Shown here in pieces: positions 36,592 through 58,274 of a stretch of DNA of 64,000 nt (position 1 is its first letter; each line of letters starts with the position of its first letter). The position numbers and the translations under genes were made by a program. The notes under the pieces were generated by a model, which was not told the origin of the DNA, did no database searches, and saw nothing but the letters and a program-made list of their open reading frames with translations. This DNA comes from Fischerella sp. CENA71 (GTDB taxonomy: Bacteria > Cyanobacteriota > Cyanobacteriia > Cyanobacteriales > Nostocaceae): assembly GCA_024239075.1 (NCBI GenBank), contig JANBVI010000076.1, forward strand, positions 124,001 to 188,000, read 5' to 3'.

Positions 36592-38532
36592 ATGAAAATT
36601 TTATTGATAGAAGATGATGAATATGCTGCTTCAATCCTTGCCAAATTACTTGCTAACCATGATTACGTAGTAGATACGACAAGCGATGGTGAGACTGGGT
36701 TGAAGTTAGCAAAAGAATATAATTATAACTTAATATTATTAGATGTACTTCTCCCAGAGTTAGATGGTATTAGCATTTGTCGCCAACTACGCAATGAAGG
36801 CTATGAAGTACCTATTCTCATTCTAACTGCTCTAGATAAAAGCACAGATAGAGTCATGGGTTTAGATGCTGGTGCAGATGATTATCTGATTAAACCTTGT
36901 GATTTTTCAGAATTAATTGCTAGAGTCAGGGCTTTGCTGAGGCGTGGAAGAGAACTATTACCAGAGGTGCTTACTTGGGAAAACTTAAAGGTGGATTTGA
37001 AAACAACAGAAGTTACCTATAACCAGAAACGTCTGCACCTGACCCCTAAAGAATATGGTTTATTAGAGCTATTGCTACGAAATCCTCAACGAATTTTCAG
37101 TCGCAGTAAAATACTAGACTTTGTCTGGTCTGTTGATGAATTTCCAGGAGAAGAAGCTGTCACAACGCAAATTAAAGGTCTGCGGCGAAAGTTAAAAGCA
37201 GTTGGGATGAGCAAAGATTTAATTGAGACAGTTTATGGATTGGGCTATAGACTCAAACAGGAAGATAACAAAGCTGAAAACCAAGAACCAGCGTTGATAC
37301 CCCATCACCCTCATCTGCAAGCCAAAACAGAGGTTTTGACTGTAGTTGCAAAGATGAGAGAGGAACTAAAAAATAGTCTCACAGAACAGATGGAATTGTT
37401 TGAGCGGGCGATCGCTCTTCTTGCTACTGGAGCATTAGATCATACACTACGCGAAAAAGCAATAGCACAGGCACATCGCTTAATTGGTTCACTGGGATCT
37501 TTGGGTTTACCAGAAGGTTCTAAAGTGGCGCGACAAATTGAAGATTTATTCCAAAACACGACAGCTAAAGATCAAAGTGTAGCACTACAAATTAATAAAT
37601 TAGTTGAGTTACTGTGGCAAATTGTGGTGAAGGGAGATGGGGATACGGAGACACGGAGATACGGAGAGACGGTGAATATTTTTGATAGACTCCCCGCGTC
37701 TCCTACTCTGCGCGTCTTTGCGTCTTTCCCCACTCCCAGCACTTCTGTTCGTCAGCGAATATTGGTAATTGATGATGATGCTGTGTTAACTGAACAACTA
37801 AAGATTGAAGCAGTTGCTTGGGGTTTACAAATTAAAGTAGTAACAAATTTAATCGCTGCGAGGAAAGAAATTACTGACAATCTTCCTGAGATCATTTTGC
37901 TAGACCTCACTTTTGCTGATAGAACAGAGAATGGACTCAAGCTGCTAGCAGAATTGAATGAGCAAAAACTTAAAATTCCAGTTGTAGTACTTACTGCACA
38001 GAATCAATTGAGTCTGAGATTGAAAGTGGCTCATTTAGGAGGATATTATTTTTTACAGAAACCTATTTCTAGCGATCGCATTTTCCAAACAATCACGACA
38101 GTATTAAATCAGACTCGTGGAGTAGAAGCAAAGGTGATGGTGGTGGATGATGATCCCGAAATATTAGATTTTTTATCTGATTTACTACCAGCTTGGGGAC
38201 TTCGGGTAACAACTTTGAACAATCCCCGAAAATTCTGGGAAATTTTGGAAGTCTTTGCTCCTAACCTGTTGATTTTAGATGTAAATATGCCTTATTTCAA
38301 TGGATTAGAACTATGTCAAGTGGTACGCAATGATTTCCGTTGGGGTGAGATACCAATACTATTTTTATCTGCTCTGAAAGATACAGAAACTATATCTAGA
38401 GTTTTTGCTGCGGGAGCAGATGACTATGTGACTAAGCCAATTATAGAGTCAGAACTAGTCTCGCGCCTCTTCAATCGATTGCAAAGAGTGCAAAGACGAT
38501 CCAGAACTGATCAGATTGCGATCGCCAATTAA
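36592..38532 (+). CDS. Multidomain response regulator REC-OmpR HTH-HPt-REC-REC (RcaC-like)
   Basis: 646 residues. Receiver 1 at 2-118 (ILLIEDDEY, phospho-Asp51 region ILLDVLLPELDG), PhoB/OmpR winged helix at about 128-224, HPt domain at about 255-345 with the histidine in AQAHRLIGSLGSLG, receiver 2 at about 386-500 and receiver 3 at about 510-635 (VMVVDDDPE, ILDVNMP, VTKP). Length and order resemble RcaC of chromatic acclimation (REC-HTH-HPt-REC), plus one receiver. Receiver 2 has LLDLTFADRTENG in place of LLDxxMPxxDG. Residues about 346-383 are a repeat-derived linker. The five-PAS kinase lies 96 bases downstream, so these probably form one phosphorelay. Confidence 0.88.
   Translation: MKILLIEDDEYAASILAKLLANHDYVVDTTSDGETGLKLAKEYNYNLILLDVLLPELDGISICRQLRNEGYEVPILILTALDKSTDRVMGLDAGADDYLIKPCDFSELIARVRALLRRGRELLPEVLTWENLKVDLKTTEVTYNQKRLHLTPKEYGLLELLLRNPQRIFSRSKILDFVWSVDEFPGEEAVTTQIKGLRRKLKAVGMSKDLIETVYGLGYRLKQEDNKAENQEPALIPHHPHLQAKTEVLTVVAKMREELKNSLTEQMELFERAIALLATGALDHTLREKAIAQAHRLIGSLGSLGLPEGSKVARQIEDLFQNTTAKDQSVALQINKLVELLWQIVVKGDGDTETRRYGETVNIFDRLPASPTLRVFASFPTPSTSVRQRILVIDDDAVLTEQLKIEAVAWGLQIKVVTNLIAARKEITDNLPEIILLDLTFADRTENGLKLLAELNEQKLKIPVVVLTAQNQLSLRLKVAHLGGYYFLQKPISSDRIFQTITTVLNQTRGVEAKVMVVDDDPEILDFLSDLLPAWGLRVTTLNNPRKFWEILEVFAPNLLILDVNMPYFNGLELCQVVRNDFRWGEIPILFLSALKDTETISRVFAAGADDYVTKPIIESELVSRLFNRLQRVQRRSRTDQIAIAN
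37631..37737 (+). repeat. Palindromic repeat inserted in frame in the regulator gene
   Basis: The left arm is GGAGATGGGGATACGGAGAC with further ACGGAGA units; the centre is AATATTTTTGATAGACTCC; the right arm is CCCCGCGTCTCC, then CTCTGCGCGTCTTTGCGTC. The arms are inverse complements. It encodes about 36 residues between the HPt and the second receiver, including IFDR. A related element lies at 53971-54126. Confidence 0.75.
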
Positions 38533-53036: not shown

Positions 53037-55157
53037 ATGGATTTAGTTGATTGTCAGGAATGCCAATTAAAAAACTTAAGTCAGCAACTGCAAAAGGAAA
53101 TCAGCAAGTGCAAGTTACTTGAGCAAAGGCTCGAAACTTCTGAAGCTCAGATGCGTGCTGTGTTTGAAGCAATGACTGATATAGTGCTTATGCTCAATCT
53201 ACACAACAATCAACTCGGAAGTATAAAAATTCTGCCAACAAAACCTAATCAAATATATACAGATGATACTGATGTAATTAGTCAGACAATAGAACAATTT
53301 TTTCATGAACAGACTGCTCCGGTATGGTTAGAAAAAGTTAGACAAGCTCTAGAACTACAGCGAACACTTCATTTTGATTACTATTTGTATCGGCAAGAGC
53401 ATAAAATTTGGTTTAGCGCTAGTATTTCCCCGACATCAGACCAATCGGTTCTTTGGGTAGCACGAGATATCAGTGATCGCAAACAAGCTGAAATCGAATT
53501 ACAACATGCTAAAGAAGCAGCCGAAGCAGCCAATAAAGCCAAAAGCCAGTTTTTGGCAGCAATGAGTCATGAACTCCGTACTCCCCTCAACAGTATTTTA
53601 GGTTTTTCTCAAATCATGTATGACGATACTTCCTGCGACGGTGAACATCGGGAGTATCTTGAGATTATTAACAAAAGTGGTCAACACCTGCTGCAACTAA
53701 TTAACGATGTATTAGAAATGTCCAAAATTGAAGCAGGTAGAATCAAACTGAATGAAAAAAAATTAGATTTATATAGTCTGTTAGATAGCTTAGAAGATAT
53801 GCTGCGCCTCAAAGCTACAGACAAAAAACTTACTCTCGTCTTTGAGCGATCGCCATCAGTACCACGATATATCATTACCGATGAAAGTAAACTCCTGCAA
53901 GTCCTATTGAACTTATTGGGTAACGCGATCAAATTTACTCCAGCAGGAAGTGTAACTCTACGCGTGAGAATGGAACAAGAGGGACAAGAGGGACAAGGGG
54001 GACATGGGGGACAAGAGGGACACGGAGACACGGGGAAAATTTTTGATAGATTCTCCACCTCAGCGCGTCTTAATGTCTCCCCGTCTTCTCCCAATCCCCA
54101 ATCCCCGATCCCTGATCCCCTATTCCTCATTTTCGAGGTGGACGATACTGGTTCTGGTATTGCTTCGGAAGAAATCAATAATTTGTTTGAAGCTTTTGTG
54201 CAAACCGATACTGGTAGGCGATCGCAAGAAGGGACAGGTTTAGGGCTAGCAATTAGTCGCAAGTTTGTACAGTTAATGGGTGGAGATATCACTGTCAACA
54301 GTGTGCTAGGACAAGGAAGTTTATTTGCATTCCATATTCGGATCAAGTTAGCAGAGATCAAACAACAGCCAAAGGAGTTGTCAAGTCAACGGGTTAAGTG
54401 TTTAGCACCAGATCAACCGATTTATCGCTTGCTAATTGTGGAGGATAATCAAGATCATCGTCAGTTTCTCGTCAAACTTTTAAGACCCTTAGGTTTTGAA
54501 ATACAAGAAGCAGAAAATGGTCAACAAGGCATAGCTATATGGGAAAGTTGGCATCCCCACATTATATTTATGGATATGCAGATGCCAATTATGGATGGTT
54601 ACGAAGCTACCAGGGAGATTAAGACGAGACAAAGAAAAGACGTAATGAGAAAAATTGAAGACGCCCAGAGAAACAGATGCGAGGACAAGGAGAGTATTTC
54701 ATCTGCATTCCCCGCGTCTTCACATCCTCATCTGTGTACGTCTTCTTCTCATACCAAAATTATTGCTCTTACGGCCTATGCTTTTGAGGAACAACGACAA
54801 GCAATGATCTCTGCTGGTTGTGATGACTTTATCAGCAAACCATTTCGTGAAGAAGAAGTTTTTGCTCACCTCGCAAAACACTTAGGCGTACGCTACATTT
54901 ACTTAGAACCAGGTATAGTTGACCAAAATCATGCTGTGCAATCTAGAAAGTTAACTCCTGAAGACCTAAAAGTAATGCCAGATACATGGATACAAAAACT
55001 ACACATAGCAGCTAAAGAATGTAACGATGAAAGTATTTTCCAACTCTTGGCTAAAATTCCCAGACAATATTCAACTTTAATTGAATTTCTAACGCAAATT
55101 ACTTATAACTTTCGCTTTGACGAAATTATAGAAATAACTGAGTTTTTGCTCACATAG
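53037..55157 (+). CDS. Hybrid sensor histidine kinase (PAS-HisKA-HATPase-REC) with repeat-derived inserts
   Basis: 706 residues. Coiled coil 1-35, PAS about 36-155, HisKA with His178 in AAMSHELRTPLNSILGF, HATPase about 285-440 with NLLGNAIKFT (N box), DDTGSGI (G1) and GTGLGLAISRK (G2), then a receiver from about 464 with VEDNQDH, phospho-Asp513 (FMDMQMP) and SKPF. Two stretches do not fit: about 312-363 (Glu-Gly-Gln-Gly rich, then IFDR and PNPQSPIPD) between the N and G1 boxes, and about 529-573 in the receiver. Both look repeat-derived. Frame and stop are intact, so the protein is probably made. No membrane helices. Confidence 0.9.
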   Translation: MDLVDCQECQLKNLSQQLQKEISKCKLLEQRLETSEAQMRAVFEAMTDIVLMLNLHNNQLGSIKILPTKPNQIYTDDTDVISQTIEQFFHEQTAPVWLEKVRQALELQRTLHFDYYLYRQEHKIWFSASISPTSDQSVLWVARDISDRKQAEIELQHAKEAAEAANKAKSQFLAAMSHELRTPLNSILGFSQIMYDDTSCDGEHREYLEIINKSGQHLLQLINDVLEMSKIEAGRIKLNEKKLDLYSLLDSLEDMLRLKATDKKLTLVFERSPSVPRYIITDESKLLQVLLNLLGNAIKFTPAGSVTLRVRMEQEGQEGQGGHGGQEGHGDTGKIFDRFSTSARLNVSPSSPNPQSPIPDPLFLIFEVDDTGSGIASEEINNLFEAFVQTDTGRRSQEGTGLGLAISRKFVQLMGGDITVNSVLGQGSLFAFHIRIKLAEIKQQPKELSSQRVKCLAPDQPIYRLLIVEDNQDHRQFLVKLLRPLGFEIQEAENGQQGIAIWESWHPHIIFMDMQMPIMDGYEATREIKTRQRKDVMRKIEDAQRNRCEDKESISSAFPASSHPHLCTSSSHTKIIALTAYAFEEQRQAMISAGCDDFISKPFREEEVFAHLAKHLGVRYIYLEPGIVDQNHAVQSRKLTPEDLKVMPDTWIQKLHIAAKECNDESIFQLLAKIPRQYSTLIEFLTQITYNFRFDEIIEITEFLLT
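53971..54126 (+). repeat. Repeat element inserted in frame in the kinase ATPase domain
   Basis: Left arm GGAACAAGAGGGACAAGAGG and similar GGGGGACA units, centre AAAATTTTTGATAGATTCTCC, right arm CGCGTCTTAATGTCTCCCCG followed by CCAATCCCCGATCCCTGATC. The centre corresponds to that of the element at 37631-37737 and is read in the same frame (IFDR). Confidence 0.75.
54621..54756 (+). repeat. Repeat-like insert in the receiver domain of the kinase
   Basis: AAGACGAGACAAAGAAAAGACG at the left and CGCGTCTTCACATCC plus ACGTCTTCTTCTC at the right are imperfect inverse arms. It encodes about 45 extra residues between the MDGYEATREIK helix and the TKIIALTAY strand. Confidence 0.65.
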
Positions 55158-58172: not shown

Positions 58173-58183
58173 TACCTAATAAC

Positions 58184-58274
58184 GGAGAGGGAGGGATTCG
58201 AACCCTCGGTACGGCCTTTCGATCCGTACAACAGATTAGCAATCTGCCGCTTTCGACCACTCAGCCACCTCTCC
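58184..58274 (-). tRNA. trnS-GCT: tRNA-Ser (GCT)
   Basis: 91 bases on the minus strand. Acceptor GGAGAGG/CCTCTCC, D-arm GGCTGAGTGGTCGAAAGCGG, anticodon stem-loop AGATTGCTAATCT, a long variable arm (TTGTACGGATC...GTACCGA) which is the serine/class II mark, and TTCGAAT in the T-loop. CCA not encoded. Reads AGC/AGT. Confidence 0.95.

Follow-up and report, generated by a model that had tools for sequence, protein, structure and literature searches.

Probable spacer peptides from a dispersed palindromic repeat in genes of Fischerella-like cyanobacteria

Protein-coding palindromes and the Fischerella locus

Palindromic repeats that reside in frame within protein genes are established for Rickettsia and Wolbachia, from which they are best known, and the same reports also mention scattered in-frame repeat fusions in other bacteria (PMC10969869, PMC2229807, PMC3767692). 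We analysed a 64,000-nucleotide stretch of the genome of Fischerella sp. CENA71 (contig JANBVI010000076.1, positions 124,001 to 188,000 of the forward strand; hereafter the window), in which two related elements lie within genes for an RcaC-like regulator and a hybrid histidine kinase. The best explanation overall is that both belong to a dispersed family of imperfectly palindromic repeats in Fischerella-like cyanobacteria and are read in frame as tolerated spacers; we consider this reading, taken as a whole, probable. Like the Rickettsia palindromic elements (RPE) and their Wolbachia counterparts, the family occurs in intergenic DNA and also in frame inside unrelated, often conserved genes (PMC10969869, PMC2229807, PMC3767692). 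It differs from the RPE described there, which measure about 100-150 bp, in its unit of about 40 bp, its different phylum and its tandem 8- or 9-mer arms. One of these three RPE papers considers that there may be hot spots for different groups of repeats and lists an RPE in the tRNA ribosyltransferase-isomerase of R. japonica; a cyanobacterial copy lies in QueA of G083, a genome of another genus. The distinguishing features of the cyanobacterial family are a single arm frame in all 34 gene/site groups and loop inversion, RPE having been compared by description only. The family works like RPE and shares both of their main features, and we file it as a cyanobacterial variant of protein-coding palindromes, a kinship drawn from description. 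RPE-named protein models, which presumably exist in such databases, appeared neither among the NCBIfam matches listed for eight host proteins (the best 25 for three of them) nor among the Pfam matches.

Other short repeats offer partial parallels. The small dispersed repeats (SDR) of Nostoc punctiforme and its relatives, reportedly described by Elhai et al. in 2008, are said to be very short, in some cases hairpin-forming, located in tandem repeats and thought to be mobile. Compared by description, SDR1-8 resemble the present family in being cyanobacterial and in having a short unit inside tandem repeats; that work is not known to describe in-frame residence in many genes. The ERIC/RU-1, Correia and YPAL miniature inverted-repeat transposable elements (MITEs) are likewise short and mobile, and their open frames are fused to genes; they differ from the present family in their length of about 100-200 bp and their other taxa, and a single-frame rule or loop inversion goes unmentioned in the accessible text on them (PMC2229807, PMC10969869). 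MITEs are defined by terminal inverted repeats, a target duplication and a matching autonomous element; in our element dyad symmetry is seen, and no target duplication was readable at its hypervariable sites. REP and REPIN sequences are short dispersed palindromes known in cyanobacteria, according to PMC3116915 and PMC3733652; unlike them, the present family could not be linked to a REP-associated tyrosine transposase (RAYT), there being two Y1_Tnp matches in short frames with no core nearby. The system of PMC2996958 likewise has dyad-symmetric DNA that codes for protein and passes from one genome to another, and differs in that the cyanobacterial copies are inserts in conserved proteins. In the small inversions of chloroplast genomes, the loop of a short inverted repeat flips (5-50 bp, with repeats of 11-24 bp; PMC12928735); unlike these, the flips reported here lie within coding sequence of bacteria, where either orientation leaves the used frame open. 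A literature search that covered few subscription papers returned no account of palindromes lying in frame within genes of cyanobacteria.

Anatomy, abundance and genic copies of the repeat

The preliminary description of the window had placed a palindromic element in the linker between the Hpt domain and the next receiver of the regulator and a related one in the ATPase domain of the kinase, and both are present. The regulator (646 aa; 36592..38532, + strand) comprises receiver, Trans_reg_C, Hpt, receiver and receiver domains by Pfam. The Pfam table gives the best stretch of a domain only (for instance one of the three receivers), and the remaining stretches were placed from the sequence, as was copy 1, which follows the Hpt domain (residues 255-340) and precedes the next receiver. 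Located by sequence, blastn and orthologue comparison, copy 1 (37631..37737, + strand) is in frame (KGDGDTETRRYGETVNIFDRLPASPTLRVFASFPTP). It has a G-rich left arm of 8-base-spaced repeats (GGAGAYAC; 37634..37673, from sequence and repeat analysis), a core or loop with two mismatches to the core GAATATTTTTGATAGATTCTCC (37674..37695, core search hit G000:C76:161674-161695) and a C-rich right arm (GCGTCTCC...GCGTC; 37696..37737, from sequence and folding), all on the + strand. Its hairpin of -19.1 kcal/mol (z -2.65) was equalled by 4 of 200 shuffles. In the kinase (706 aa; 53037..55157, + strand; HisKA, HATPase_c and receiver by Pfam), copy 2 (approximately 53971..54126, + strand; sequence, Pfam and orthologues) is also in frame (EQEGQEGQGGHGGQEGHGDTGKIFDRFSTSARLNVSPSS), within an HATPase_c region that Pfam gives as two stretches. 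Its left side is mostly a nonamer array (GGGACAAGR type; 53972..54034, + strand, repeat analysis), followed by a core or loop with one mismatch to GAATATTTTTGATAGATTCTCC (54035..54056, + strand, core search hit G000:C76:178035-178056) and a C-rich tail. The centre shared by the two was also described beforehand, and ATTTTTGATAGA is indeed found in both cores (37678-37689 and 54039-54050), reading Ile-Phe-Asp-Arg (IFDR) in the gene frame; copy 1 continues with Leu and copy 2 with Phe, not with the Ser/Arg/Leu/Val then given. The explanation that fits best is that the regulator and the kinase each bear a tolerated spacer in which IFDR has no specific function.

Within the window, this 12-mer occurs at four sites with at most one mismatch against 1.05 expected, and 3 of 100 shuffles reach four, a mild enrichment. 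This in-window count is weak evidence, but the genome-wide count makes the likeness decisive. In the own genome (G000, a 7.47-Mb assembly of 95 contigs) and four congeners (G001-G004), GAATATTTTTGATAGATTCTCC at up to three mismatches has 66, 14, 25, 10 and 31 sites, respectively (146 in total, 80 of them in the congeners), and the reversed-core control has none in any of the five. With the 107-mer of copy 1 as query, the own genome yielded at least 41 blastn matches at E <=0.01, 40 of 150 first-look candidates having been scored; the proposed whole-genome search did uncover many further copies. Beyond the genus, the distribution narrows: the 107-mer matches 11 of 40 relatives at E <=0.001, many of those outside the genus via the arms only, and the core at up to two mismatches occurs in 22 of 193 family genomes, with two matches overall for the reversed control. 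Dense occurrence is confined to the genus of the five genomes (g1) and to genus g17 (12 and 13 copies in two genomes), and nine sparse family-wide core matches without arms were taken as chance. In a collection of named genomes, an exact longer pattern was found in 14 stretches, all from Fischerella, Pelatocladus or Westiellopsis. The family looks separate from RPE and lineage-restricted.

The basic unit spans about 40 bp, GAGGACACGGNGAAT - 11-nt loop - ATTCTCCGCGTCTTC, and is frequently extended by 8- or 9-bp tandem arms, so that the 22-bp core is set in 8/9-base repeats. Compared by eye, the copies have a left arm rich in G and made of GGGGACAC or GGGGACAAG units, then a GGAGAAT/ATTCTCC inner stem that encloses the AT-rich loop, and on the right a C-rich arm (CGCGTCTCC...CGCGTC); the likeness of copies across unrelated genes extends to the base level. 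The shortest genic copies (L272, L274 in QueA and L279) measure about 40 bp. A peptide profile built from genic copies found at least 149 places in the own genome at E <=1, with 150 of 1121 candidates scored and some places counted on both strands, the element being palindromic. By hand count, 63 of these profile rows lie within stop-free open frames of at least 250 residues; the census was kept out of the frame statistics because the profile had been built in one frame. Among 20 further long-frame places, L410, L414, L415 and L426 have diverged IFDR-like loops, and L422, L423, L427 and L428 have other loops such as NTDEIL or NIDEIL, which indicates that the IFDR core represents one loop subfamily of a larger set.

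To place copies within genes, we used 193 distinct copies, 146 from genus g1 (at most three mismatches) and the rest at loci of other genomes (at most two mismatches). Ten that failed both arm criteria were dropped, leaving 183 arm-bearing copies, and open reading frames (ORFs) in six frames were required to have at least 180 aa, with at least 60 residues before the core and 40 after it. Fifty-five ORFs passed: 40 in frame '+2' (xIFDRFS), 14 in '-2' (xNLSKIF), one in '+1' and none in the other three. Four were removed, namely the '-2' frames of L061 and L209, which are antisense shadows of '+2' genes, the '-2' frame of L192, with a Pfam match downstream only, and the '+1' frame of L116, without a Pfam match. 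The resulting 51 genic copies fall into 34 gene/site groups, defined by orthologue grouping in genus g1 and by reading of domains and flanks elsewhere. Twenty-eight groups are supported on both sides by Pfam domains flanking or surrounding the element or, for RecO, by orthologue conservation; the six without two-sided support are L181, L199/L246, L266, L272, L273 and L291. The family also exists outside genes, with 129 of the 183 arm-bearing copies unassigned to any. The loop variant GATTGATTCACC is common in non-genic copies (for example L009, L017 and L029) and brings a TGA stop codon into the register that genic copies use; GATTGA occurs in 31 of the 129 other copies and in none of the 51 genic ones.

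The hosts, named from Pfam, NCBIfam or reading of the sequence, include NarB, NirA, QueA, TilS, RecO, RecJ, RsmB, CobB (two sites) and CopA, together with an enzyme of the pyruvate-ferredoxin oxidoreductase type, a ketoacyl synthase, polyketide synthases, an AcrB-type pump, an aminotransferase, a radical-SAM protein, an ABC transporter, response regulators and several kinases. Most genic copies occupy inter-domain positions or variable linkers, and some fall inside an enzyme domain; the proteins concerned are unrelated and often housekeeping ones. The insert comprises 28 residues in NirA, 34 in the aminotransferase and 77 in NarB, against 1, 3 and 26, respectively, in solved homologues, and about 18 residues in QueA, in two gaps relative to a solved homologue. 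NirA, QueA, CobB and the NHLM ABC transporter pass NCBIfam cut-offs across the insert; RecO and TilS pass them on parts ending upstream of it. The preliminary description's protein-tolerated dispersed palindrome is therefore borne out by in-frame copies in many genes. Some hosts hold further repeats. CobB of G004 (L241) has two apparent inserts, the second of which (GDVTNNFSVSLRPKLSASSS) has lost most of its loop and is located where G083 has a full copy (L279), and in RecO (L278) and RecJ (L280) of G083 another repeat lies apparently in frame beside the element (LSGGFRRSE and LSGGFLRTSD). From these last two, other cyanobacterial repeats may enter genes too.

Reading frame, loop orientation and orthologues

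The two window copies had been described as sharing one reading frame, a statement that generalises to the whole set. Frames '+2' and '-2' represent one arm register in which the loop may point either way, GD(T/A)-x-N-[IFDRF or NLSKI]-SASPRL, and because they share this register, all 34 groups are in one arm frame. Among the 129 other copies, the arm frame makes up 41-44% of open frames; against this null, p is about 1e-10 for the 28 best-supported groups if these are independent. Selection for one frame had been proposed for the palindrome. A single arm frame does hold in all groups, and the constraint falls on the arms and not on IFDR, since 11 of the 51 genic copies carry the loop the other way round and read NLSKIF-like in the corresponding register. 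Conservation is strict for the frame and loose for the peptide.

Several causes of the frame were considered. Avoidance of stop codons was rejected: in the 129 other copies, '+1' is open more often (71%) than '+2' (53%), the minus frames being open in 30-43%. Codon usage gives no advantage, with mean ln w of -0.62 and -0.65 in the used frames against -0.50 to -0.60. Target-phase specificity appears unlikely, judged from the variable arm lengths. The mean net charge of the encoded peptide is -0.2 and +1.0 in the two used frames and +1.8, +2.8 and +3.5 in three unused ones, a correlation through which a filter against basic spacers may explain the frame.

Between some orthologues the loop is exactly inverted. 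A 29-bp stretch of the radical-SAM gene is in opposite orientation in G000 and G004, where the left flanks differ in length, and a 35-bp stretch of a kinase gene is inverted between orthologues with closely similar sequence on both sides. These are two of the nine orthologue sets that share a core at one site within one genus. Independent insertion in the other orientation seems a less likely cause of the inverted loops. Because the used frame stays open either way, a flip swaps one peptide for another.

Comparison of close orthologues, as suggested for the regulator, showed that the residues are not kept throughout. Copy 1 is absent from two, G002 having a short, different linker and G004 a 9-mer array instead. 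Copy 2 is common to G000, G002 and G004 in the same frame, which we read as descent, and G003, G001 and G011 hold other sequence there; the kinase linker has a GAAGCCGCTTACGCGTCTACGCG-type repeat in G003 (L063) and a GTCATTTGTCATT-type repeat in G001 (L065). Nonamer arrays of the GGGGGACAC/GGGACAAG type occupy such linkers, as in the rcaC orthologue of G004 (L034, about 2551-2733) and at 53972-54034 of the window, and in the cases seen they are in a GHG/GQG frame even without the IFDR core. The linkers of RecO, radical-SAM, TilS and CopA are variable likewise, with close orthologues often lacking the insert or holding other repeats. Within the genus, a diverged form in TilS is kept in all five congeners, and the RecO element is carried by G000 and G004 only, with the copy of G083 near the same place.

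Over seven orthologue sets, the ratio of nonsynonymous to synonymous change (dN/dS) is 0.82 in the element and 0.21 in the flanks, and it is higher in the element in each set, pairs within sets not being independent. The added peptide changes much faster than its flanks and is weakly constrained. The element may also move together with a gene: the RcaC-like regulators of G002 (L087) and of plasmid C of Trichormus variabilis (L430), from two genera, are closely similar by eye. The plasmid regulator with the element is present in records of two strains, in the same frame as L087 where read in one of them, and the plasmid is typed as conjugative; the element can thus travel with its gene. A third plasmid match, in Burkholderia, covers 35% of the query and lies in the left arm. 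An Rfam search of the window returned two tRNA genes only (RF00005; 48468-48541, + strand, and 58183-58274, - strand).

Competing explanations and significance

We infer that the repeat spreads, either by transposition in trans or by recombination with pre-existing arm-like tracts, and that insertions into genes would survive only where the gene stays open and the place is tolerant. The frame of surviving insertions would be the one encoding a weakly charged spacer rich in Gly, Asp, Ser and Ala, the other open frames being more basic, and the hairpin may then occasionally flip its loop, as in the chloroplast small inversions. The mobility claimed in the preliminary description would follow from the dispersal and patchy presence of copies; the analysis turned up neither a transposase partner nor a duplicated target, and at some sites more than one genus has a copy.

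A number of observations sit uneasily with a recently mobile, frame-filtered and freely tolerated spacer. Copy 2 has no significant hairpin (z -0.29; 74 of 200 shuffles equally good). The own genome has two matches to PF01797 (Y1_Tnp) only, in frames of 138 and 145 aa, and no core at up to five mismatches lies in L247 or L248, the loci around them; RAYT mobilisation is accordingly not supported by these two matches, the transposon search having been confined to PF01797. No clean empty site with a target duplication was readable, the linkers being hypervariable. The frame rule has several possible causes, and the charge argument is a correlation only. The unsupported '+1' ORF of L116 would be the sole exception to the rule if it is a real gene, and in one N-terminal case the frame differs between orthologues, '+2' in L003 (G000) and '+1' in L110 (G004), with an uncertain start codon; downstream of the element, both are in the same frame again. 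L003 and L110 belong to the near-5'-end ORFs that fail the 60-residue rule (with L008, L112, L114, L166-L168, L179, L200 and L212), which include '+1' and '-0' cases, some without a Met before the core. Copies at one site in two genera were seen for RecO, the RcaC-like site, a polyketide synthase, an acyl-CoA ligase and a kinase. They are not predicted by recent movement alone, and these five groups, recognised by reading, possibly reflect old inserts or hot spots. TilS contributes 148 of the 239 nonsilent differences; without it dN/dS is about 0.59, and single sets span 0.47 to 1.95, so that the peptide may be under some constraint. Genic copies of different genes show no third-position excess of changes (0.093/0.107/0.084).

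The alternative that survives best is that arrival itself sets the frame, the linkers already holding G- and C-rich 8/9-mer tracts in a fixed frame into which the core recombines from an existing copy. The linkers of relatives do hold other repeats: rcaC of G004 has only the 9-mer array in its GHG/GQG frame, CopA, RecO and the radical-SAM protein vary likewise, and L291 and L422 have different loops, by eye, at one site of one gene in two genera. Yet octamer arms shift the frame with each unit, so that arm homology alone leaves the frame of the core unfixed, and short copies with little arm (L274 in QueA, L272 and L279) keep the frame as well. We regard this as a possible account, well behind that of a tolerated spacer.

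Unlikely, in our judgement, is a frame-locked invertible module, in which passage from gene to gene would keep the arm frame, through in-frame recombination of arm tracts or copying of coding RNA, and the loop would flip between IFDRF- and NLSKI-type peptides. If true, it would represent switchable linkers in dozens of housekeeping proteins.

Slightly less probable still is that the peptide is functional, as a binding motif or regulatory linker whose frame selection maintains. The strict frame, the good conservation of FSASP across genic copies of different genes and a dN/dS below 1 in five of seven sets speak for such a role, to which we gave more weight in view of the lower ratio without TilS. 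Against it stand the excess of element over flank dN/dS in all seven sets, the lack of an excess of silent change among copies, loops inverted between orthologues and hosts that are functionally unrelated; IFDR as a functional motif is not supported.

That the two sites are an ordinary low-complexity linker alike by chance or composition bias can be practically dismissed, despite the insignificant hairpin of copy 2 and the mild enrichment of the 12-mer in the window, because the 66 cores against none for the reversed control in the own genome rule out chance likeness, the base-level likeness spans unrelated genes, and close orthologues without the element also rule out a conserved domain motif.

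The tolerated spacer derived from a dispersed palindrome thus remains the explanation we favour. In the intracellular genomes of Rickettsia and Wolbachia, weak selection is in our view an easy explanation for palindromes in genes. Here the genomes are cyanobacterial and of 7 Mb, nitrite reductase, nitrate reductase, TilS and RecO are among the host enzymes, relatives lack the insert, and a strict single frame holds, which together offer a new setting in which to test how selfish DNA turns into protein. The two loop inversions within coding sequence provide a further testable point. In these cyanobacteria, the repeat appears to add a spacer peptide to enzymes and signalling proteins rather than to break their genes.
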